From positions 1 through 64,000 of the forward strand of contig BQMY01000079.1 of assembly GCA_022181065.1 (NCBI GenBank): a DNA stretch of 64,000 bases, in the 5' to 3' direction. Below, piece by piece: positions 5,894 to 40,922 of this stretch. Source of the DNA: Melioribacteraceae bacterium (lineage in GTDB: Bacteria; Bacteroidota; Ignavibacteria; Ignavibacteriales; Melioribacteraceae). The translations under genes were made by a program, and so were the position numbers. Positions within the stretch are counted from its first letter, which is position 1, and each line of letters begins with the position of its first letter. Below the pieces are notes generated by a model that made no database searches, was not told the DNA's origin, and saw nothing but the letters and a program-made list of their open reading frames with translations.

Positions 5894-8311
5894 ATGCAGA
5901 TTAAATATTCAACTATTTTAGCTTTAATTTTTCTCTCTGTTTCTATTTCGGTTTTTGCCAGGGAAACATTGACAGGAAACATTATGATGGGAAAAGTTAT
6001 CGATGCCAATACCGGGTCAAATCTTGAATTCGCGAATATTATTGTTCAGGATACCAATTTTGAACAGGTTAAAGGAACTGTTACAGGTACTGATGGTACA
6101 TTTATTATCGGGGGACTTGATGATGGTACTTACCACCTTAAAATCAGTTATATAGGTTATGAACCTGATTCGCTGATGAACATTAAACTTGCCGGTAATA
6201 AAAGAATGAGATTGGGAGAGTTCAAACTTTCTCAGATTACCTACAGCACTGATGATGTGGTTGTCAGTAGCGAACGTGCTCCGATATCATATGAAATTGA
6301 TAAAAAGGTCATCAATGTAAGTGAGCAGTTTACAGCTAGTTCCGGCTCGGCTGTTGATGTACTCGAAAATGTTCCTTCTGTTAATGTGGATATTGAAGGT
6401 AATGTTAGTTTGCGCGGAAGCAGCAGTTTTACTGTTCTTATTGATGGACGACCTACAATCATGGACGCCGCCGACGCGCTTGAGCAAATTCCCGCGGCAA
6501 CTATTGAAAATATAGAGATCATTACTAATCCGTCGGCAAAGTATAATCCTGAAGGTACTGCCGGTATTATCAATATTGTTATGAAAAAGCAGGAAAGATC
6601 TGGTATGTCCGCTATTGTTGAACTAAATGGCGGATTAAATGAGAAGTATGGTGTTGAGTCTTTGTTCGATTACAAAACACAGGAATACGACTGGAAAGTA
6701 AACGTTGGCTACAGTAATCGCTTTTTTGATATGGATGATGTATCAGAACGAAGAACTACAACCGGAGGAATAACTTCTTACATTAACTCTGACGGCGGCT
6801 CTGAAAGGGGAAGAAAAAGATTTAATATTGAAACTGAATTTACCCTGTTCCCCGCATCTAATAATATTGTTACATTTGGCGGTCAATACAGAACAGGAGA
6901 GTCTTTAAGAAATTCAGCTCTAAACTACAATGAATGGACTTCGGACGATCCCGTTATCAATTTTTTCCGCAGTTCAAATGATAGATTTCGCTCTCGAAAT
7001 TCTGCCGAAATTTTTGGAAACTACCTGCACAAATTTGGTGCAAACGGACATCAGATCATGACCGAGTTTGAGATAGAATATGACGAAGGTGATGAAGAAA
7101 CCACAAATGAATTGTACCTCGGAAGTGATATCAGTGAAGGTAAAATATCCACCGAAAAAGGTCCCGGAAGAGAACTTCAATTTAAGTCTGATTATACTCT
7201 TCCTCTTGGTGAAGATTCAAAATTTGAGGCCGGTTATCAGATGGAGATGGAGTTTTCAGATGATAATACAGGCTCATACGATTACAATACCACAACAAAT
7301 CAATATGATTATCAGGCTCAATTCAGTCGTCAAACCCGTTATGATAAAAGGGAGCACGCGGTTTATTCCATGTACGCTGGTAAACTTGGAGCTTTTGGAT
7401 ATCAAACCGGTTTAAGGGGTGAATATACAGGTAGAAAAATTGAAGTTGTAGAACAGAATCAGATATTCGAAATAGACAGGTTCGACCTCTTTCCATCCGT
7501 TCATATGTCTTATGAAATTGTCAAAGATCACCAGTTAATGGGTAGTTACACCAGAAGAATAAACAGACCGCGCGGCTGGAATCTTGAACCGTTCGAAACC
7601 TGGGTTGACGCTTATAATGTTCGTAAGGGTAATCCGGCACTTGAACCCGAGTTTGTTAACTCATACGAGTTTGGCTACCAGACATTCATCGGTAAAAGTA
7701 TATTATCAGCAGAAACATATTTCCGCGAATCAAACAACAAAATTGAAAGAATCCGTACAACATATTCTCCCGGTGTTTCTCTTATGACATTCGAAAATGT
7801 TGGTAAAGATTATTCGCTCGGAACAGAATTGATGATTAACTTCGATCCTTTACAAAAATGGAATGTCAACCTGATGGGCAATATCTATAACTATAAGGTA
7901 GAAGGTGCCTTGAATGGTCAGGATTTTTCAAGGGAAAGTACCAACTGGGATTTGCGTTTCAATAACTCAATTCGCTTCAGCAAATCGACAATGCTGCAAT
8001 TCAATCTGATGTATAATAGTCCGTCGGTTTCATCTCAGGGTGAACGTGAAGGATTTTTCCATACAAATGTTGCGATACGGCATGATCTGTTCGACCGTAT
8101 GATCACTGCTGTACTGCAGATAAGAGATGTTCTTGGAACAGCCGAATATAAATTCACGACGGTATCAGACGGGTATTACGATTTCCGTCATGTAACACGA
8201 GAAAGTCCGATTGTTATGTTGAATATCAAATTTAACTTCAACAATTACAAGGACAGAAATCGCGGACGTGATGGAGGCGGTGATATGATGGGTGGTGAAG
8301 ACGACTTTTAG
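5894..8311 (+). CDS. TonB-dependent outer-membrane receptor with carboxypeptidase-like N-terminal domain
   Basis: An 805-residue secreted protein with a signal peptide ending near SVFA. Residues about 28-110 form a carboxypeptidase-regulatory-like beta-sandwich (GKVIDANTGSNLEFANIIVQD ending ...ISYIGYEPD). Residues about 120-225 form a plug with the segments VLENVPSVNVD and GNVSLRGSSSFTVLIDGRP. The rest, to the C-terminus, is a beta-barrel of the outer-membrane beta-barrel (OMP_b-brl_3) type. The C-terminus has an unusual Arg/Gly/Asp-rich tail rather than a terminal aromatic residue. Such receptors import siderophores, glycans or peptides, or act as signalling receptors; the substrate cannot be told here. 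The upstream 200 bases are very AT-rich and contain TAAATTTTG, resembling a Bacteroidota -7 box. No SusD-like partner is adjacent. Confidence 0.88.
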   Translation: MQIKYSTILALIFLSVSISVFARETLTGNIMMGKVIDANTGSNLEFANIIVQDTNFEQVKGTVTGTDGTFIIGGLDDGTYHLKISYIGYEPDSLMNIKLAGNKRMRLGEFKLSQITYSTDDVVVSSERAPISYEIDKKVINVSEQFTASSGSAVDVLENVPSVNVDIEGNVSLRGSSSFTVLIDGRPTIMDAADALEQIPAATIENIEIITNPSAKYNPEGTAGIINIVMKKQERSGMSAIVELNGGLNEKYGVESLFDYKTQEYDWKVNVGYSNRFFDMDDVSERRTTTGGITSYINSDGGSERGRKRFNIETEFTLFPASNNIVTFGGQYRTGESLRNSALNYNEWTSDDPVINFFRSSNDRFRSRNSAEIFGNYLHKFGANGHQIMTEFEIEYDEGDEETTNELYLGSDISEGKISTEKGPGRELQFKSDYTLPLGEDSKFEAGYQMEMEFSDDNTGSYDYNTTTNQYDYQAQFSRQTRYDKREHAVYSMYAGKLGAFGYQTGLRGEYTGRKIEVVEQNQIFEIDRFDLFPSVHMSYEIVKDHQLMGSYTRRINRPRGWNLEPFETWVDAYNVRKGNPALEPEFVNSYEFGYQTFIGKSILSAETYFRESNNKIERIRTTYSPGVSLMTFENVGKDYSLGTELMINFDPLQKWNVNLMGNIYNYKVEGALNGQDFSRESTNWDLRFNNSIRFSKSTMLQFNLMYNSPSVSSQGEREGFFHTNVAIRHDLFDRMITAVLQIRDVLGTAEYKFTTVSDGYYDFRHVTRESPIVMLNIKFNFNNYKDRNRGRDGGGDMMGGEDDF

Positions 8312-8316
8312 CGTGA

Positions 8317-8354
8317 ATAAAAAAGGGGATACCCGAACCGGATGGTATCCCCTT
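8317..8354 (-). terminator. Hairpin terminator between convergent genes
   Basis: AAGGGGATACC (8323-8333) pairs perfectly with GGTATCCCCTT (8344-8354) around a 10-base loop. A run of A at 8319-8324 becomes a T-tract on the minus strand. It therefore suits the amidohydrolase transcript from the minus strand, about 130 bases past its stop, and may also slow transcription from the receptor gene. Confidence 0.7.
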
Positions 8355-8485
8355 AAAGCGCAATTTAACGCGCATAGGTCGGATTCAATACTGTCATCAA
8401 GCTATCTGTTTCCGAATTTCAAAATGACTTACAGCAAGATATCCAATCATCCCCATGCGTTCAAACCAATAATAGTTGACCTAAA

Positions 8486-10207
8486 TTACTCCACTTCTCC
8501 ATAAACAATCTTCCCGCCCACAATAGTGAATAGTACTTTAGCGTTTTTAATATCATCTTCTGGAGCATTAATTAAATCGGTATCAATAATAATTATATCG
8601 GCTAGTTTACCCAGCTCCAGCGTACCTTTAATATCTTCTTCAAATGACGCGTAGGCACCGTTTATGGTGTAAGATTTAAGAGCTTCTTCCCTTGTCATTT
8701 TTTGTTCCGGGAAAAACTCGAATCCGCTTTCGGTCTTCCGGGTGATGCTGGAGTAGATACTTTCAAAAGGATTAACACTCTCTACCGGAGCGTCAGTACC
8801 ATTACAAACTATAACTCCTCCATCAATCATACTTCTCCACGCATATGAAGTTTCACGCGCTCGTTCTTCACCAAGTCTTTCAGCGACAAACACAGCATCG
8901 GAAGTACAATGTTTTCCCTGCATCGCGGCAATTATGCCATATTTTGCGAAGCGTTTTATATCCTGAGGTAAAACATGCTGGGCATGTTCAATTCGCCACC
9001 TGAGAGAATCGGGCGCCGTACTTTTTTTCAACACAGATGAATATATATCGAGCATTTCGCTGTTACCCTTTGTACCAATCGCATGAGTACAAATCTGGAA
9101 GCCGTGTTTAAGGCAGAGTTTCGCCGTTTCGCGCAATTCTGTATTGGGTGTTACCTGCAAACCTGTATGTTCAGGCAGATCGTTGTATGGTTCAAATAGT
9201 AAAGCACCTCGTGAACCGAGCGCCCCATCAATATATTTTTTAACCGATCTGACTCTTAAAAACTCGGTATTGTAAGATGAATCTTTTATCGTACCTATTT
9301 TTTCTTTTAATATTTTATTCGTTTCGTAAAGCATTATGTTCAAACGTGTGGTAAGACTTCCTTCTTCGGCTTCCTTTTTATAAATCTCGACCTCTTCAAA
9401 AGTTGAACCCGCATCGTGGATTGAAGTAATTCCATATTTTTTTAATTCATCAAGAGCAAGTGTAAGATTACGACGGATATTATCGTTTTTTTGCTTTGTT
9501 GAAAGTTTGGCTTGTTTGTCAAGGTAAGGTTTCCAGATCAGTTCTTCCGCGGTCTCCTCAAACACACCCGTAGCTTTTCCGTCGGCATTTCTTACAATTA
9601 CACCACCCTCGGGGTTTGCGGTGGAATCATCTATTCCGGCAAGATCCATTGCTTTTTTATTTGCAAATGCAGCATGACCACTAGCGTGTGTAAGAATCAC
9701 AGGGTTTGCGGGTACCGCCTCACTAAGAACATCGTGAACAGGATAACCATTTACGTTATCGACCGGTTTGGGATTCCATTTATCCTGATGCCAACCCCTG
9801 CCGACTACCCACTTTCCTATTCCTGCTTCCCGGGCGGCGTTCACAACCATTAAAATTACTTCATCCCAGTTTTTCGCTCCGGATAGATCCAGATTCACCC
9901 TGGATGCGCCCAAACTTAACAGGTGCATATGACTGTCTATAAGTCCGGGCATAACAAAATTTTTCTTTGCGTCAATAACTATTGTAGAATCGCTTTTATG
10001 CTTAATTAGCTGTTCAATGAACCCTATTTTCCAGATTGTATCTCCCCTTACGGCGATGGTGTTGCCTGTAATGAGGGTATCGGATAGTGTTGCGAGATTA
10101 CAGTTAGTGATTAACAGGTCGGCAGAAATCTGCGGTTTTTCCTCTTTCGCGCATGCTGAAAATACTAAAAGAGCGGCAATAATTAAGAATACATTTTTTT
10201 TAATCAC
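8486..10207 (-). CDS. Amidohydrolase-3 family metal-dependent hydrolase (YtcJ-like), lipoprotein
   Basis: A 573-residue protein with a lipoprotein signal peptide (lipobox VFSA-C). The mature part is a complete amidohydrolase: an N-terminal beta-sandwich, then MPGLIDSHMHLLSLG with the HxH metal ligands, the SIHDAGS region, later conserved His residues (LKHGFQICTHAIG and RIEHAQHV) and the late metal-binding Asp in NGTDAPVESVNPF. The C-terminal segment closes the beta-sandwich. This is the YtcJ-like branch of the family, whose members are often poorly characterised; substrates could be amides or N-acyl compounds. It lies 8 bases downstream of the enoyl-CoA hydratase gene and is probably cotranscribed with it. 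A membrane-anchored extracytoplasmic location is predicted from the lipobox. Confidence 0.85.
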   Translation of the reverse strand: MIKKNVFLIIAALLVFSACAKEEKPQISADLLITNCNLATLSDTLITGNTIAVRGDTIWKIGFIEQLIKHKSDSTIVIDAKKNFVMPGLIDSHMHLLSLGASRVNLDLSGAKNWDEVILMVVNAAREAGIGKWVVGRGWHQDKWNPKPVDNVNGYPVHDVLSEAVPANPVILTHASGHAAFANKKAMDLAGIDDSTANPEGGVIVRNADGKATGVFEETAEELIWKPYLDKQAKLSTKQKNDNIRRNLTLALDELKKYGITSIHDAGSTFEEVEIYKKEAEEGSLTTRLNIMLYETNKILKEKIGTIKDSSYNTEFLRVRSVKKYIDGALGSRGALLFEPYNDLPEHTGLQVTPNTELRETAKLCLKHGFQICTHAIGTKGNSEMLDIYSSVLKKSTAPDSLRWRIEHAQHVLPQDIKRFAKYGIIAAMQGKHCTSDAVFVAERLGEERARETSYAWRSMIDGGVIVCNGTDAPVESVNPFESIYSSITRKTESGFEFFPEQKMTREEALKSYTINGAYASFEEDIKGTLELGKLADIIIIDTDLINAPEDDIKNAKVLFTIVGGKIVYGEVE

Positions 10208-31460: not shown

Positions 31461-31624
31461 TTCGCCCCAAATTTATGTTTTCTAATATGACGTTAAGTCC
31501 TTTAAATATGTTCAATAATCATTTAAAGTTCAAAACATCATTTCAATTTTTATCTATTTATCGTGTTTATACCCTATTAAAATGTGCCTTAAATTTATTA
31601 TCTTCACATTTATTTTGGAGAATA

Positions 31625-34114
31625 ATGCGTCTCAGTTTTTTCTTGATAATCATGTTTTATGTTTTTTCAGGTTTGTCAGCCCAGACCCCTGAAAAAGAAA
31701 TGATGGCTCCGATAGAAACCGTCAATTCCGATCACCCCACTTTGAACATGTTCGGTGGTGAGCAATGGGTGGCAATTTGGCAAATTCCCGTTGAAGTACC
31801 GGTATTGTATGAAAATGTGCTTAAAAGTGGTAAAGTCACTGAAGGTTACGAAAGTCCGATCTTTGGTAAAGTACCTCTGAAAACAGAGTTTATTCCCTTT
31901 TATGCTGAAGCTGAATCGGATATTGAAGAAAACTATCAGGAATTTGTTTCCGCAATCGCTGCTGACCCGCTAACCACCAGATTCCCGTATGCGATATCAC
32001 TCGTTGAAAATCTGTTACGAGCCGTGGGGTTTGAATACCCCGAATCTTATCCGGTTGTATTAAGAAGAGAGGATGGCGCTGATATTATGGGATACCTGCT
32101 GATATCCCCCAAAAACAAAAATGAAAAAATCACAACAAAAGAGTTAATCCGGAGACGAAACTCCACCTCAATCGATTCAATTGATTACAGAGCTTATTTA
32201 AAGTTACGGTTAATTGACTTGCTGGTAAATAATTGGGAAAAGGAACCCCGTTCTTTCAAATGGGAGAATAGAGAGGGTATTTGGCGACCTGTACCGGGTT
32301 TATATAAAAAAGCGTTTTCCCGATTTGAGGGGATTTTACCCGACGCGTTTACAACAATCGCCCCGCAATGGAATTCATTCGAGAGGACATTTCCCGCAAT
32401 TGACGCGCTTACATGGAACAGCCGGCAGATAGACCGCCAATTACTCTCTTCGTTAAATCAGGCTGAGTGGAACAAGGTTGTCCATGAAATAATGTCGAAA
32501 CTTTCTACAATGGTACTGCTGGAAAGTGTTGACTACCTTCCCGAGACATTTCGATACAATGCCGGGGTTGAGATATTTGAAATACTAAACGCCAGAAAAA
32601 CTGGTTTACCAAAACTCGCTGAAGAATACTATGTTTTTCTGAATGAAATTTGCGAGTTGTACGGTTCCGGAGGGAAGGATACCGTTATTGTAAACAGATT
32701 AAAAGATGTTACCGAAATAATAGTTTCAACGCCGAAATTCAAAATTCATAGAAATTTTTCAACAGGATCAACCGAAGAAGTTAGAATTTTCCTCGGTGAG
32801 GGCGATGATCACGTTATAACCGATTGTTCAGATAATAATGATATTACAGTCAGGGTAGTAGGTCAGGAAGGTATAGACCATTTTGAAGATACTTGTCCGG
32901 AAAAGGATGAGATTCTGTTTCTCACACTTTTCGGTATGCAGAAGTTTAATAACTATTTTTACGACGAAGAAGAATACACAAAACTTTCTCTCGGCAAATT
33001 CAGCAAGTTTTATGACAAATCACCGGCTCAACCCGATCTGAAAATGGATATGCTAACCGGAACCGTCAAAACAAGAGGCAGCGGCATAGGGTTTTCTCCA
33101 ATTGCGGAATTTAACAGAGATGACGGTTTGATTCTTGGAATTGAGCCGATGTTCACAACATATGCTTTCGCGAAAACTCCGTATGATTTCAGATTAAGAA
33201 GTATCGCCCGATACGCCACAAAATCAGGAGGGTACGTTCTTGGTCTGAGAAGCACGTTCAATTCACTCATAGAAGACGCCTCGGTGAAATTTGAAATGAT
33301 AAAGAGTGAATTGCTAATGTCAAAATACTTCGGGTATGGAAACGATGTTGCATATTCCGAAGAGAGATATGATAACGGCGGTTATGATCTTTCGCAGGAA
33401 AACTTTTATTTTTTGGGTGAGATCGATTTTCAGTTGAATGATCTTCTTACATTCGCAATTGGGGGAAGTTATAATTTTTCCGATGCCGTACCTGATTCCT
33501 CCGATTTGCTGTCAACATTTCCGTCACTTAACCCGGGAGTGGGTGAATTCAGTTATCTTAAAATTTTCTCACGACTGATATTTGATTCGCGTGACGATGA
33601 GTTTTACCCTCGTTCCGGCTTTTATGTAAAATGCGATTTCAGGGTTTCACCAACAACTATGGATAACCCGATACGCTTTTGGAAAGGTGAATTTAACGCG
33701 GATTATTACAAAACATTCCATTTTCTGACCGAACAAACCACTAAAATAACCGTTGGTGGTGGAAAATTATGGAACGATTACCCGTTTTTTGAGTCGGTGT
33801 TAATTGGTGGTGAAGAGACCCTTCCCGGATTTCGTGACACCCGTTTCGCCGGGGACGCTTCCGCATACTCGATAATTACTCAGAATGTGGTTCTAGGAAA
33901 TATCAAATTTCTCGTGAAAGGAAAATTAGGTGCAAAATTTTTAGTAACTTCGGGCAGAGTTTTTTCCCGCGGGGATCTTTCAGATACATGGCATTACGCC
34001 TTCGGTGGAGGATTCTGGTTTAACGGCTTTAACGAAACAATACTCGGCGAGTTTTACGCTGCTCAATCAGATGAAACTTTGGCTATTTACCTTACTACTT
34101 CATTCAGAATGTGA
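31625..34114 (+). CDS. Omp85-type outer-membrane protein with a degenerate kinase-like N-terminal region
   Basis: The start is set at the ATG at 31625, preceded by TTTTGGAG and followed at once by a signal peptide (ending SGLSAQ); an in-frame ATG at 31475 lacks these. The 829-residue product has an extracytoplasmic part (about 21-500) and a C-terminal surface-antigen/Omp85 barrel (about 510-829) with FYPRSGFYVK and the loop GGEETLPGFRDTRFAGD. It is a tandem paralogue of the next gene. Where that protein has GDWDRH and PRDRDQAFAKF, this one has NNWEKE (202-207) and PGLYKKAFSRF (224-234), so both acidic sites are lost. I infer a pseudo-enzyme partner of the neighbour. Confidence 0.82.
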   Translation: MRLSFFLIIMFYVFSGLSAQTPEKEMMAPIETVNSDHPTLNMFGGEQWVAIWQIPVEVPVLYENVLKSGKVTEGYESPIFGKVPLKTEFIPFYAEAESDIEENYQEFVSAIAADPLTTRFPYAISLVENLLRAVGFEYPESYPVVLRREDGADIMGYLLISPKNKNEKITTKELIRRRNSTSIDSIDYRAYLKLRLIDLLVNNWEKEPRSFKWENREGIWRPVPGLYKKAFSRFEGILPDAFTTIAPQWNSFERTFPAIDALTWNSRQIDRQLLSSLNQAEWNKVVHEIMSKLSTMVLLESVDYLPETFRYNAGVEIFEILNARKTGLPKLAEEYYVFLNEICELYGSGGKDTVIVNRLKDVTEIIVSTPKFKIHRNFSTGSTEEVRIFLGEGDDHVITDCSDNNDITVRVVGQEGIDHFEDTCPEKDEILFLTLFGMQKFNNYFYDEEEYTKLSLGKFSKFYDKSPAQPDLKMDMLTGTVKTRGSGIGFSPIAEFNRDDGLILGIEPMFTTYAFAKTPYDFRLRSIARYATKSGGYVLGLRSTFNSLIEDASVKFEMIKSELLMSKYFGYGNDVAYSEERYDNGGYDLSQENFYFLGEIDFQLNDLLTFAIGGSYNFSDAVPDSSDLLSTFPSLNPGVGEFSYLKIFSRLIFDSRDDEFYPRSGFYVKCDFRVSPTTMDNPIRFWKGEFNADYYKTFHFLTEQTTKITVGGGKLWNDYPFFESVLIGGEETLPGFRDTRFAGDASAYSIITQNVVLGNIKFLVKGKLGAKFLVTSGRVFSRGDLSDTWHYAFGGGFWFNGFNETILGEFYAAQSDETLAIYLTTSFRM

Positions 34115-34124
34115 GCTTTAATTG

Positions 34125-36689
34125 ATGAATTCACCAATTAAAATTCAAGTTTTAGTCTTTTTTATCGCATCTGTACTTTTTGCTCAGGAAAGTGAGAATG
34201 TTACGGTTGTACCAGAGCCCGATTTTAAAGCCGGATATTTTCATAAACTGGTTTTCGGCAGCCACTGGCGCGATCTCTGGACAGCGCCCCTTGAGGTAAA
34301 AGTTCTTGATCTCGATAACTTTGCCGGTGGAATATCCCCTATAAAACGCGGAGGCGGGCAGCAAACAAAATCTCTGAGGTTTAAAGGTAACGACGGACGA
34401 ATCTGGAAATTCCGCTCGATGACGAAAGACCCTTCGAAAGTACTCCCTGAAGAACTAAGAGGAACATTTGTCGCTTCTGTGTTAAAAGATCAGATTAGTT
34501 CAGCCAATCCGCTTGCTCCGATTATTGTCGCACCGATTCTTCAGGCTGAAGGTATTCTGCAGGCAAAACCTGAACTTTGCCTTATGCCTGATAGCGAAAA
34601 ACTTGGTGAATTTCGTGAGGAATTTGCCGGATTAATTGGTATGATTGAGATTCATCCCGACGAAGAGTTTATAAAAGCTGATCCTCTGTTTGATAATTCT
34701 GATAAATTCAGAGGTACACTAAAATTACTCGAATCACTCGAAACAAAACGCTCAAACAAGATTTACGCTGCCGGATTTTTGAAAGCCCGACTGGTTGATG
34801 CCTATCTTGGTGATTGGGACCGACACACGGATCAATGGCGATGGGCAAGGTTTGAGGAACAAGACACCTCATTCTGGCATCCTATACCACGCGACAGGGA
34901 TCAGGCTTTTGCCAAGTTTACAGGTATTGGTCCTTCTCTTGCCGAGTATTACGTACCACAGTTGAACAATTTTGGCGAGGATATGCCTCCGGTAAAATCG
35001 ATAACATGGAGCGGTAGATTTCTCGACAGAAGAATTCTTCCGGCGTTATCCAGAACCGAATGGGATAAAATCACAGATGAAGTTATTTCGGTACTGTCCG
35101 ACAGCCTGATAGAGTATTCAGTTTCACAATTGCCTGAACCGCACTATAGCCTGGCTTCGGATGAATTGCTCCATAAACTTAAATCCCGCAGAGACCAGCT
35201 GAAAGAGTTTTCGCTCGATTATTACCAACTGATAAACGAAGTTGCTGATGTTTTTTGCAGTGATGAAAAAGATTATGTGAACATAACTTTTTTACCGGAG
35301 AATAAAACACTCGTAGAAGTTTTTAAATACGATAAAAAAGATAAAGAGCCCAAAGGAGAGCCGCTTTTCAGAAGAGCCTTTGACAACAGTATTACAGAAG
35401 AACTAAGAATTTACCTCGGTGATGACGATGACTATTGTATAGTAACAGGTGACGCTATAGACATTCCTCAAATCAGAATTATCGGAAATGACGGTGGCGA
35501 TAAAGTTAAAAACTCATCTGATCATACCATAGAGTTTTACGATAGCGGTAAAAAGTCGGAATCAAAGGGAAAAGGGGATATTTACTACGATAATGAAAAA
35601 TGGGCAGAACCAACAACTCCCGCCGAAAGATATGAACCACAGTTAAAAGACAGAGATTCCGAGACAATATTTGCTCCGGCGGTTTCCGCGAATGATGATG
35701 ATGGCTTGATTTTCGGAATTGGTATGGACTACTATAAATACGATTTCCGCTCAGACCCAAATCAATACCAAATGAACGTGGAGGCTCTCTATGCCACCAA
35801 ACCGGAAAGTTTCAGTATCAGTTATTCAGCTATCTTTCATAAACTGTTCAAATTTATGAAACCCGATTTTTCCGCGGAGCGTACCAAATTAAAACTCACC
35901 AAATTTTATGGATTCGGGAATGAAACCTCATTTGACAGCGAAGCGGAGGAGAACAATTTCTATCGCCTGGAGTATGAGTTTCATTCGGTAAATATCGGTT
36001 TTAACTTTTACCCCGTTGAAAATTTCCGTTTCAGACTGGGCGCGTCATATACTTTCTCGGAGATGGAACTTAAAAACCTGTTTCTGCTAAATAATTTTCC
36101 CGGAAATACTTATGGTCTTGGAGATATACACAGCATTAATTTTTCCGGTTTTTTCCAGTATGACAGCAGGGATAACAAACTACAGCCATCTCGCGGTTTA
36201 TACGCTCACCTGCTGATGAGCTATTATCCGGAAACACTTGATATTAAGCAGGCTTATCAAACCGGTAGTTTTGATCTAAGGTATTATATACCTTTCAGTA
36301 CACAAAAATATCATGTGCTCGCATTAAGAACAGGGGGATCGGGTGTAACAAATGATTACCCGTTTTATTCGGCGTCAATGGTGGGTGGAGAAAATAGTTT
36401 AAGGGGTTACAATCGTGAAAGATTTGCCGGTGACGCGGCGCTCTTTTTTCAATCGGAGTTAAGAAATTATCTGTTCCCGATAAAATTAATTATAAAAGGG
36501 AAATTAGGAAGTTTTATCTTTGCCGAATCGGGCAGAGTTTTTACAGATGTTAATTCAAATAAATGGCATTCCTCATTTGGAGGAGGTGTATGGACATCAT
36601 TTTTAGACCGGATGTTGGTCCTGCGGCTTTCTCTCGCGGCTTCAGAAGAGACCGTAATGTATTATATCGATACTGGTTTGGCATTTTAA
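34125..36689 (+). CDS. Omp85-type outer-membrane protein with kinase-like N-terminal region
   Basis: An 854-residue protein started at the ATG at 34125; the in-frame TTG at 34122 is adjacent. A signal peptide ends near VLFAQ. The region about 85-105 (LRFKGNDGRIWKFRSMTKDP) resembles a nucleotide-binding beta-strand with Lys95. Residues 229-238 are GDWDRHTDQW and 254-265 are IPRDRDQAFAKF; their order and spacing resemble the catalytic GNxDRH and metal-binding Asp segments of FAM20 and HipA-type kinases. A C-terminal Omp85/surface-antigen barrel follows (about 560-854) with GGENSLRGYNRERFAGD. The same N-terminal block occurs, as I recall, in Bacteroidota proteins annotated as metallophosphoesterase or BamA-like fusions. 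The kinase reading is my inference. Confidence 0.82.
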   Translation: MNSPIKIQVLVFFIASVLFAQESENVTVVPEPDFKAGYFHKLVFGSHWRDLWTAPLEVKVLDLDNFAGGISPIKRGGGQQTKSLRFKGNDGRIWKFRSMTKDPSKVLPEELRGTFVASVLKDQISSANPLAPIIVAPILQAEGILQAKPELCLMPDSEKLGEFREEFAGLIGMIEIHPDEEFIKADPLFDNSDKFRGTLKLLESLETKRSNKIYAAGFLKARLVDAYLGDWDRHTDQWRWARFEEQDTSFWHPIPRDRDQAFAKFTGIGPSLAEYYVPQLNNFGEDMPPVKSITWSGRFLDRRILPALSRTEWDKITDEVISVLSDSLIEYSVSQLPEPHYSLASDELLHKLKSRRDQLKEFSLDYYQLINEVADVFCSDEKDYVNITFLPENKTLVEVFKYDKKDKEPKGEPLFRRAFDNSITEELRIYLGDDDDYCIVTGDAIDIPQIRIIGNDGGDKVKNSSDHTIEFYDSGKKSESKGKGDIYYDNEKWAEPTTPAERYEPQLKDRDSETIFAPAVSANDDDGLIFGIGMDYYKYDFRSDPNQYQMNVEALYATKPESFSISYSAIFHKLFKFMKPDFSAERTKLKLTKFYGFGNETSFDSEAEENNFYRLEYEFHSVNIGFNFYPVENFRFRLGASYTFSEMELKNLFLLNNFPGNTYGLGDIHSINFSGFFQYDSRDNKLQPSRGLYAHLLMSYYPETLDIKQAYQTGSFDLRYYIPFSTQKYHVLALRTGGSGVTNDYPFYSASMVGGENSLRGYNRERFAGDAALFFQSELRNYLFPIKLIIKGKLGSFIFAESGRVFTDVNSNKWHSSFGGGVWTSFLDRMLVLRLSLAASEETVMYYIDTGLAF

Positions 36690-36722: not shown

Positions 36723-38084
36723 ATGAAAAATTTTTTAATTCTTATTCTACTTTTCACATCGCTACATTTTTCACAAGTTGTTACTTTGAGGGAGAAGATA
36801 GGTCAGATGATTATGACCGGGTTTTCTAACGAGGGTGATTCATATGAACGTGTGTTAACAGATATTGAAGATTATAATCTGGGCGGAGTTATCTTTTTCA
36901 GGAGTAATATCGATGACGGCAATCAGGTGCAATTACTGATTGAAACATTGCAAAGTTCTGCGGCTACCCCGCTTTTTACAGCAGTGGATCAGGAAGGTGG
37001 TCTTGTAGCTCGTTTTACAAGTTCAAACGGATATCAAAAAACTCCTTCAGCCTATAAACTGGGCACTGAGATCAACAGCGAAGACACAACGCGGTATTAC
37101 GCCGCAATGATGGCAGGATGGCTTTATGACGCGGGATTTAATGTTAATTTCGCGCCTGTTGTTGATGTGAATGTCAATCCCGAATCACCCGCGATCGGGC
37201 ATTATGGAAGAAGTTTTTCAGATGATCCCGTGGTGGTTTATAATCATTCATCGTGGTTTATAGATGAATTTCATCAAAAAAATATCTCAACAGCGTTAAA
37301 ACATTTTCCGGGTCACGGTAGCGCGGAAGACGACAGTCACCTTGGATTTACTGATATCACGTCCACATGGTCAGCGGTAGAACTTAATCCTTATGAACTC
37401 CTGATTGATGATGGCTACAAAGATTTGGTAATGAGCGGTCATTTATTTAATGAAAATATCGATACTCTTTATCCGGCGTCACTATCCACATTCGCCCTCG
37501 ACAGCCTTCTGAGAAATGAACTTGGATTTGAAGGTATAATTGTCAGTGATGAAATGTTCATGCAGGCTATATCCGCAAATTTCGGATTTGAAGAGGCGGT
37601 TGTACAGGCAGTGATAGCAGGTACAGATATCCTGCTTTATAGCACTAATTTTTATGAAGAGCAGCCTTTGGTTCCATACATTATTGATCTGATTGAAACA
37701 AAAGTGAACGAAAATGTAATTCCAGTATCCAGAATTGAGGAAGCATACGACAGAATAACAGCACTCAAACAGGAACGCCAGATCATCACCTCTACAGATG
37801 ATAGCTTTGCTTCAATACTTCCGGAAAATTATGAAATAGGAAATTATCCCAATCCGTTTAATCCTTCAACGACAATAAAAGTCAATTTAGTGAAATCCGG
37901 TAATATCACCCTTAGTGTATATAATATCACAGGTGAAAAAATTGCAGAGCTGGCAGACGGATATTTCAATCAGGGAAGTTTCTCATTTAAGTTTAGCGGT
38001 GCCGGTTTTGCTTCGGGAGTTTATCTCGCTGTTTTAGAGACAAATGCGGGAGTTTTTACCCATAAACTGATGCTAATGAAATAA
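36723..38084 (+). CDS. T9SS-sorted glycoside hydrolase family 3 (beta-N-acetylhexosaminidase-like)
   Basis: A 453-residue secreted enzyme. A signal peptide (ending LHFSQ) is followed directly by a GH3 N-terminal barrel: LREKIGQMIMTGF near residue 22, VDQEGGLVARF near 92, the KHFPGHGSAEDDSH substrate/acid-base loop near 193, and the nucleophile Asp in GIIVSDEMF near 275. This pattern is NagZ-like (N-acetylglucosaminidase) rather than beta-glucosidase, and the GH3 C-terminal domain is absent. The final about 80 residues are a T9SS type-A sorting module with NYPNPFNPSTTI. It is therefore exported to the surface, unlike cytoplasmic NagZ. Likely targets are GlcNAc-containing glycans or cell-wall fragments. 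Confidence 0.9.
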   Translation: MKNFLILILLFTSLHFSQVVTLREKIGQMIMTGFSNEGDSYERVLTDIEDYNLGGVIFFRSNIDDGNQVQLLIETLQSSAATPLFTAVDQEGGLVARFTSSNGYQKTPSAYKLGTEINSEDTTRYYAAMMAGWLYDAGFNVNFAPVVDVNVNPESPAIGHYGRSFSDDPVVVYNHSSWFIDEFHQKNISTALKHFPGHGSAEDDSHLGFTDITSTWSAVELNPYELLIDDGYKDLVMSGHLFNENIDTLYPASLSTFALDSLLRNELGFEGIIVSDEMFMQAISANFGFEEAVVQAVIAGTDILLYSTNFYEEQPLVPYIIDLIETKVNENVIPVSRIEEAYDRITALKQERQIITSTDDSFASILPENYEIGNYPNPFNPSTTIKVNLVKSGNITLSVYNITGEKIAELADGYFNQGSFSFKFSGAGFASGVYLAVLETNAGVFTHKLMLMK

Positions 38085-40268: not shown

Positions 40269-40922
40269 ATGAAATACTTCCAAACTTTTAGAACAAACTG
40301 GCGTGAATTCTTAAAAAACAGATCTGATGTTTACCTTCTTTCAGGTGGAATTTTATTTTTGAGTCTGGTTGTACTTGGGATCAGCAATTTTTTCGGATGG
40401 AATGAAGCACGCCCCGGTACTGTAATCCCCGATCCGGTACTCGCTTTGTTTGAACCGATCGATCTTACATGGATCACCTTCATAGTTTTGTATGGAATTC
40501 TGCTCGTCATCGTTCTTTATATGCTGCCGCGACCTAAAATTCTTTTATTCGCGGCTTACGGATACGGACTCCTTGTCGCGGTGAGAATGGCAACCATGTT
40601 TTTATTGCCGCTGGAAGCGCCCCCTTCGATAATTCCACTCGAAGATCCCTTCATAGCAATTATAGGCGGCGGTGTTACACTCCAGAAAGATTTGTTTTTT
40701 TCGGGTCACACGGGCACTTCATTTTTTTTCTTTTTAATTCTTGAAAACAAACTGCTGAAATATATTATGCTCGCGGTAACGATAATTATAGGAAGTTTCG
40801 TGTTATTGCAGCATGTACATTACTCAATAGATGTATTTTCCGCTCCTTTCTTCACATTTGCGGTGTTTTCAATCACTCGAAAATTTGTTTCGTCCTATTT
40901 GTCTCAAAAAGGAATTATTTAG
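40269..40922 (+). CDS. PAP2-type membrane phosphatase / sphingomyelin-synthase-like protein
   Basis: A 217-residue polytopic membrane protein with about six hydrophobic segments. Two catalytic motifs of the PAP2 superfamily are near the C-terminus: FFSGHTGTSFF (C2, proton-donor His) and QHVHYSIDVFSAPFF (C3, nucleophile His and Asp). The classic C1 KxxxxxxRP is not clear, as in the sphingomyelin synthase-like PAP2_C group, in which this probably falls. It would act on lipid phosphates or transfer lipid head groups at the outer face of the membrane. It overlaps no neighbour, and the next gene starts 47 bases later. Confidence 0.85.
   Translation: MKYFQTFRTNWREFLKNRSDVYLLSGGILFLSLVVLGISNFFGWNEARPGTVIPDPVLALFEPIDLTWITFIVLYGILLVIVLYMLPRPKILLFAAYGYGLLVAVRMATMFLLPLEAPPSIIPLEDPFIAIIGGGVTLQKDLFFSGHTGTSFFFFLILENKLLKYIMLAVTIIIGSFVLLQHVHYSIDVFSAPFFTFAVFSITRKFVSSYLSQKGII

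Follow-up and report, generated by a model that had tools for sequence, protein, structure and literature searches.

Most kinases carry a lysine in strand 3 and use an asparagine as the metal-binding residue, and ATP is normally absent outside the cytoplasm, including at the outer membrane. Enzyme domains on Omp85 barrels are described, among them that of the patatin-Omp85 protein PlpD, a phospholipase that cleaves phospholipids at the inner leaflet of the outer membrane and whose enzyme domain remains periplasmic (PMC11116518). In addition, Heinz and Lithgow (2014) defined a "Metallo" subfamily of PF00149-Omp85 proteins that was termed metalloprotease, with no kinase domain named (PMC4104836). 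Here, we analyze a gene from a 64,000-nucleotide stretch of a Melioribacteraceae bacterium genome (contig BQMY01000079.1; the whole stretch is called the window), whose product joins a protein-kinase-like (PKL) domain to an Omp85 barrel. We read it, with a probability of roughly 0.55, as an envelope phosphotransferase that belongs to a phosphate/polyphosphate island.

The gene spans positions 34122 to 36689 (like all window features given with residue numbers below, on the forward strand) and encodes 855 amino acids from a TTG start or 854 from the ATG at 34125. Residue numbers follow the TTG start and equal those of an earlier note on this DNA, which had proposed kinase-like motifs in an outer-membrane barrel protein, plus one. 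The reading frame is confirmed as genuine, with the motifs where that note had placed them. Read directly from the sequence, residues 1 to 22 (34122-34187; ...FFIASVLFAQ) are a probable signal peptide, and the N-terminus is hydrophobic in every relative. The PKL domain follows at residues 58 to 372 (34293-35237), delimited by an AlphaFold2 model and structure matches, and then an all-beta linker domain with GGxGxD-like repeats at residues 373 to 540 (35238-35741; DSSP of the model), which has no family match and lies outside the region covered by structure matches. The suspected Omp85-like barrel is borne out by a match to PF01103 at residues 576 to 815 (35847-36566; E = 7.1e-16, 59.1 bits against a cut-off of 24); the barrel extends to the C-terminus, contains LRGY at residues 760 to 763, and is also similar to an NCBIfam Omp85 family. 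A POTRA domain has no Pfam or NCBIfam match in the window protein, and the Omp85 "noNterm" subfamily likewise is without POTRA (PMC4104836). PF00149 is absent by Pfam search, and the N-terminal 550 residues are covered by no Pfam or NCBIfam model. Across 62 diverse homologues, too, no such model consistently covers the PKL domain. This architecture is well supported by computation.

The assignment of residues 58 to 372 to a two-lobed kinase fold is well supported by structure prediction. An AlphaFold2 model of residues 26 to 545, built from a 62-sequence alignment, reaches pLDDT 92.2 and pTM 0.92, and a second model of the kinase part only (pLDDT 92.4) returns the same structural matches. The earlier note had named a predicted fold without kinase lobes as the outcome that would speak against it; kinase lobes are present. 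All 15 Foldseek matches in the PDB with E < 0.001 are kinase-fold proteins (CtkA, CotH, HipA, PI4KII-alpha, the Golgi casein kinase Fam20C, and a bacterial kinase), as are the best 50 VIA-align chains, which span the model residues equal to window residues 58 to 372. With VIA-align, CotH (Z 15.0, 254 residues, 4.0 A) and PI4KII-beta (Z 15.0, 259 residues, 4.4 A) lead CtkA (Z 14.2), HipA (Z 11.4), and Fam20C (Z 10.8), at moderate TM-scores of 0.4 to 0.5 and identities of 8 to 14%; the best matches among predicted viral structures are likewise PI3/4-kinase-like. The likeness to FAM20 and HipA that had first been pointed out thus holds at the level of fold, but on these models CotH and PI4KII are the closer structural neighbors.

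Searches of solved structures with the single sequence or a profile returned no kinase, so the kinship is visible only via fold, motifs, and HMM-HMM comparison. In the latter, IGDWD falls on the CotH catalytic loop and PIPRDRDQAF on the CotH motif iPyDyDnaFG. Global hhalign runs with the CotH and HipA profiles gave no match and local E-values were weak, and a shuffle control was therefore added: the CotH alignment reaches a score of 26.6, whereas 60 column shuffles peak at 20.4 and the reversed profile gives 17.8. The best local HipA alignment sets D-W-D-R-H-T-D-Q-W on N-x-D-D-H-x-K-N-F with a score not above background. CotH (PF08757) has no Pfam match in the window protein and is not among the families listed for 62 members, HipA_C matches neither the window protein nor anything in the window genome, and PI3/PI4-kinase families have no Pfam match in the window protein. 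The Fam20C model (PF06702) has no match above its cut-off in 198 genomes, the sole match, at 20.4 bits against 26.8, falling within a member of the PKL family. Matches of an untrimmed CotH profile to window genes by hmmsearch were dismissed, as they come from a shared T9SS sorting domain.

Conservation was assessed in an alignment of 75 diverse homologues, most of them 30 to 50% identical to the window protein. Within the catalytic loop GDWDRHTDQW (residues 230 to 239, 34809-34838), which is placed by conservation and by the HMM-HMM register with HipA and CotH, D231, D233, and R234 are kept in all 75 homologues and H235, Q238, and W239 in 74. In the DFG-like PRDRDQAF (residues 256 to 263, 34887-34910; IPRDRDQAF from 255), conserved and aligned with the CotH motif above, D258 and D260 are present in 75/75 and R259 in 74/75. 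This conservation is well supported and far above chance, and it covers each of the five residues on which the kinase proposal had relied (Asp232, Arg233, His234, Asp257, and Asp259 in its numbering; 74 to 75 of 75). Also invariant are G46, R50, G69, G70, G78, R98, K102, P130, R223, D226, W241, D302, and P338. Each position of the glycine-rich GGG between N-lobe strands 1 and 2 of the model (residues 77 to 79, 34350-34358) is kept in 72 to 75 homologues, and D123, on a helix at the aC position of the model (34488-34490), is Asp in 73 and Glu in 2.

The proposed kinase lysine, Lys95 (K96 here), fared differently: it is Lys in 26/26 close relatives, yet across the wide family just 15/75 have Lys there, and K96 is ruled out as catalytic lysine. 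Given the near-invariance of the DRH and DRD motifs, it is these that carry the family and not K96. Judged by conservation, R98 and K102, both invariant and located at or just past the end of N-lobe strand 3 (34413-34427), are better candidates for the role, with R98 the likely stand-in for the usual strand-3 lysine; R98 and D123 may replace the pair of strand-3 lysine and aC acid. From established kinase anatomy, D233 is presumed to be the catalytic base, D258 should be the DFG aspartate and metal ligand, and Q238 should occupy the slot of the metal-binding asparagine, where one stand-alone member has the canonical residue (DRHADNW).

Of 58 related genomes, 22 have the PKL domain, as do 69 of the 198 genomes sampled from the phylum, and it occurs at no fewer than 587 places in a scan of 84,980 species, with members in Bacteroidota, Gemmatimonadota, Chlorobiota, and others. 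We observe three architectures: the form of the window protein, with signal peptide, PKL domain, and barrel (approximately 870 amino acids); a form of approximately 1,240 amino acids in several homologues, in which a calcineurin-like phosphatase (PF00149, a phosphoesterase domain) precedes the PKL domain and barrel; and stand-alone PKL proteins of 423 amino acids with an N-terminal membrane anchor or of 518 to 570 amino acids with lipobox-like starts. The 423-amino-acid form ends at the domain end of the model and thereby checks the kinase-domain border independently. Clusters of two to three lipoprotein-like stand-alone genes of the 518- to 570-amino-acid kind, with no barrel, occur at loci L173 (4129-9148) and L174 (4436-7775), and at L184 a further Omp85-family gene (8203-10059, 619 amino acids) adjoins a tandem pair of PKL-Omp85 genes. 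We found no description of the family in the literature. We would class it as a new PKL family, outside every named kinase family tested, although it may be listed among the 32 new PKL families in the KINtaro supplement; its architecture and location we would also class as new.

The gene neighborhood of the family, a phosphate/polyphosphate island, is well supported by a survey of 80 loci that took in flanks of up to 9 kb. Recurrent neighbors encode an HD/PycTM membrane protein (37 loci), an SdiA-regulated/phytase-like propeller (26 loci, mostly directly upstream), PPK1 (19), a SixA-like phosphatase (13), and PAP2 (11), and those common to several phyla include CotH kinase and phosphate-selective porin. 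The 19 loci with PPK1 come from Ignavibacteria, several Bacteroidota, and Gemmatimonadota; genomes hold one or two PPK1 copies, and we estimate that chance would place one this near at approximately 1% of loci. PPK1 adjoins the PKL-Omp85 gene at 3 to 21 bases in several Ignavibacteria and lies 23 bases off on the same strand in the Gemmatimonadota member L045; 1 to 3 kb separate the two genes in Hymenobacter, Pontibacter, and Rufibacter. One family shows PPK1 at 13 to 16 kb in 15 of 18 genomes, but as housekeeping genes intervene, this spacing counts as weak evidence. In several Ignavibacteria (loci L187, 439-11549; L180; L181; L182) the island reads PAP2, CotH, and porin O/P-like, then propeller and PKL-Omp85, then PPK1, SixA, and HD-PycTM, with the CotH kinase gene adjoining the phosphate-selective porin gene. 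A 340-amino-acid neighbor of CotH is porin O/P-like, and a reading of it as a VTC polymerase was dropped. In the window genome itself the island is distributed among three contigs, with the PAP2-CotH-porin block and PPK1 on other contigs, a point against the phosphotransferase reading. Downstream of the kinase gene in the window are a protein of glycoside hydrolase family 3 that bears a T9SS sorting tail (36723-38084, 34 bases away) and a PAP2_C membrane protein that is lipid-phosphatase or sphingomyelin-synthase-like (40269-40922, 3.6 kb away).

PAP2-type genes, recurrent here and represented downstream in the window by PAP2_C, would also suit a lipid kinase that adds phosphate to, or removes it from, a lipid head group at the inner leaflet of the outer membrane. 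The membrane lipid kinase PI4K type II shares first place among the structural matches, and the setting would be that of PlpD, which cleaves phospholipids while carried on an Omp85 barrel (PMC11116518). We consider this unlikely: the protein kinases CotH and CtkA/HipA match equally, polyphosphate and phosphate genes outnumber lipid genes in the neighborhood, and stand-alone PKL forms occur.

Eight bases upstream of the PKL-Omp85 gene lies a paralogue (31475-34114, forward strand, 879 amino acids) whose product is 32% identical. Its frame and barrel are intact, but all its kinase motifs are lost: the catalytic loop reads NNWEKEPRSFKW, the second motif PGLYKKAF, and R98 and K102 are gone as well. 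By its residues it is a pseudokinase, and might be a Fam20A-like regulator, or else the motif loss may reflect relaxed drift. A similar tandem of one intact and one degenerate copy is found in G013. Such tandems, the presence of CotH genes within the same island, the Fam20C-like order of motifs, and the weak match to the Fam20C model would together favor a kinase of exported proteins, a counterpart of Fam20C and CotH with the degenerate neighbor as an allosteric pseudokinase like Fam20A. Nonetheless, intact/degenerate pairs are rare, and a degenerate copy can also stand singly (G023, G044, G051). Degenerate members sit on long branches of the tree, that of the window paralogue being very long, and the motif losses represent at least two independent events. 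Moreover, we know of no phosphate donor in the periplasm, and we hold this explanation to be quite improbable. A dead or reused fold that senses or binds phosphate, polyphosphate, or nucleotide and gates the barrel or recruits partners, as the strand-3 Arg in place of Lys, the Gln where the metal slot usually has Asn, and the intact frames of degenerate members could suggest, is very improbable given that D233, D258, and D260 are invariant across several phyla, as catalysis predicts, and that one stand-alone member keeps the canonical Asn.

We return to the envelope phosphotransferase, for which we infer catalysis, a periplasmic face, and the nature of donor and substrate. The secreted PKL domain would be anchored at the outer membrane via the Omp85-type barrel, most likely facing the periplasm as the enzyme domain of PlpD does. 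R98/K102 and the GGG loop would hold the donor phosphates, D258 and Q238 would bind the metal-phosphate donor, and D233 would act as catalytic base, so that a phosphoryl, possibly nucleotidyl, group is moved to or from an envelope substrate. With ATP absent outside, a polyphosphate- or pyrophosphate-type donor, or another exported phospho-compound, is plausible, and the genomic company makes polyphosphate and pyrophosphate candidates. PPK1 is a cytoplasmic enzyme, however, and its gene linkage is hence no proof of a polyphosphate donor. Since a metallophosphatase sits in the same chain in many homologues, phosphate may be both added and removed there, or salvaged. With the strand-3 lysine replaced by R98 and the metal-binding asparagine by Gln, a nonkinase reaction or pure binding is possible.

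Taken further, the family could constitute an unrecognized class of outer-membrane kinases in which polyphosphate or another exported phosphate replaces ATP, envelope components are phosphorylated, the phosphatase is carried in-chain, and a dedicated polyphosphate island serves the system, a proposal that we regard as doubtful. Kinase-type chemistry would sit at the outer membrane, linked to polyphosphate, where no ATP is expected, in a PKL domain that lacks a Pfam or NCBIfam model yet occurs in about a third of the sampled genomes of the phylum. As hosts such as Hymenobacter, Pontibacter, Pedobacter, and Tenacibaculum are cultivated, envelope phosphorylation in bacteria becomes directly testable.

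Compared with known systems, CotH (PF08757; 5jd9, 5jda) shares the fold, aligns in its WD and P-x-D-x-D-x-x-F motifs and, as a spore-coat protein kinase, has an extracytoplasmic role in common with PKL-Omp85, but it differs in its N-lobe motifs and lacks an outer-membrane barrel. PI4-kinase type II (4hnd, 4wtv, 9hhm) shares the fold at Z 15 and its motif, DRxxDNW, is alike to DRHTDQW of the window protein; it is, however, a eukaryotic cytoplasmic lipid kinase, and the window protein has Gln for Asn and Arg for Lys. HipA and CtkA also share the fold, with the HipA catalytic loop N-x-DDHxKN aligning at background score, whereas HipA is a cytoplasmic toxin-antitoxin kinase and its domain has no match in the window protein. 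Fam20C has in common the order of DRH and then D-x-x-x-x-F, export, and a pseudokinase neighbor, yet is a eukaryotic Golgi kinase of lower structural similarity (Z 10.8). With the Omp85 "Metallo" subfamily the barrel is shared, PF00149 being present in the homologues of approximately 1,240 amino acids but not in the window protein, and at least some of these "Omp85-metalloproteases" are to be revised as phosphatase-kinase-barrel fusions. Finally, PlpD likewise has an Omp85 barrel preceded by an enzyme domain, but there the barrel follows a phospholipase with POTRA, whereas in the window protein it follows a PKL domain and then an all-beta linker.
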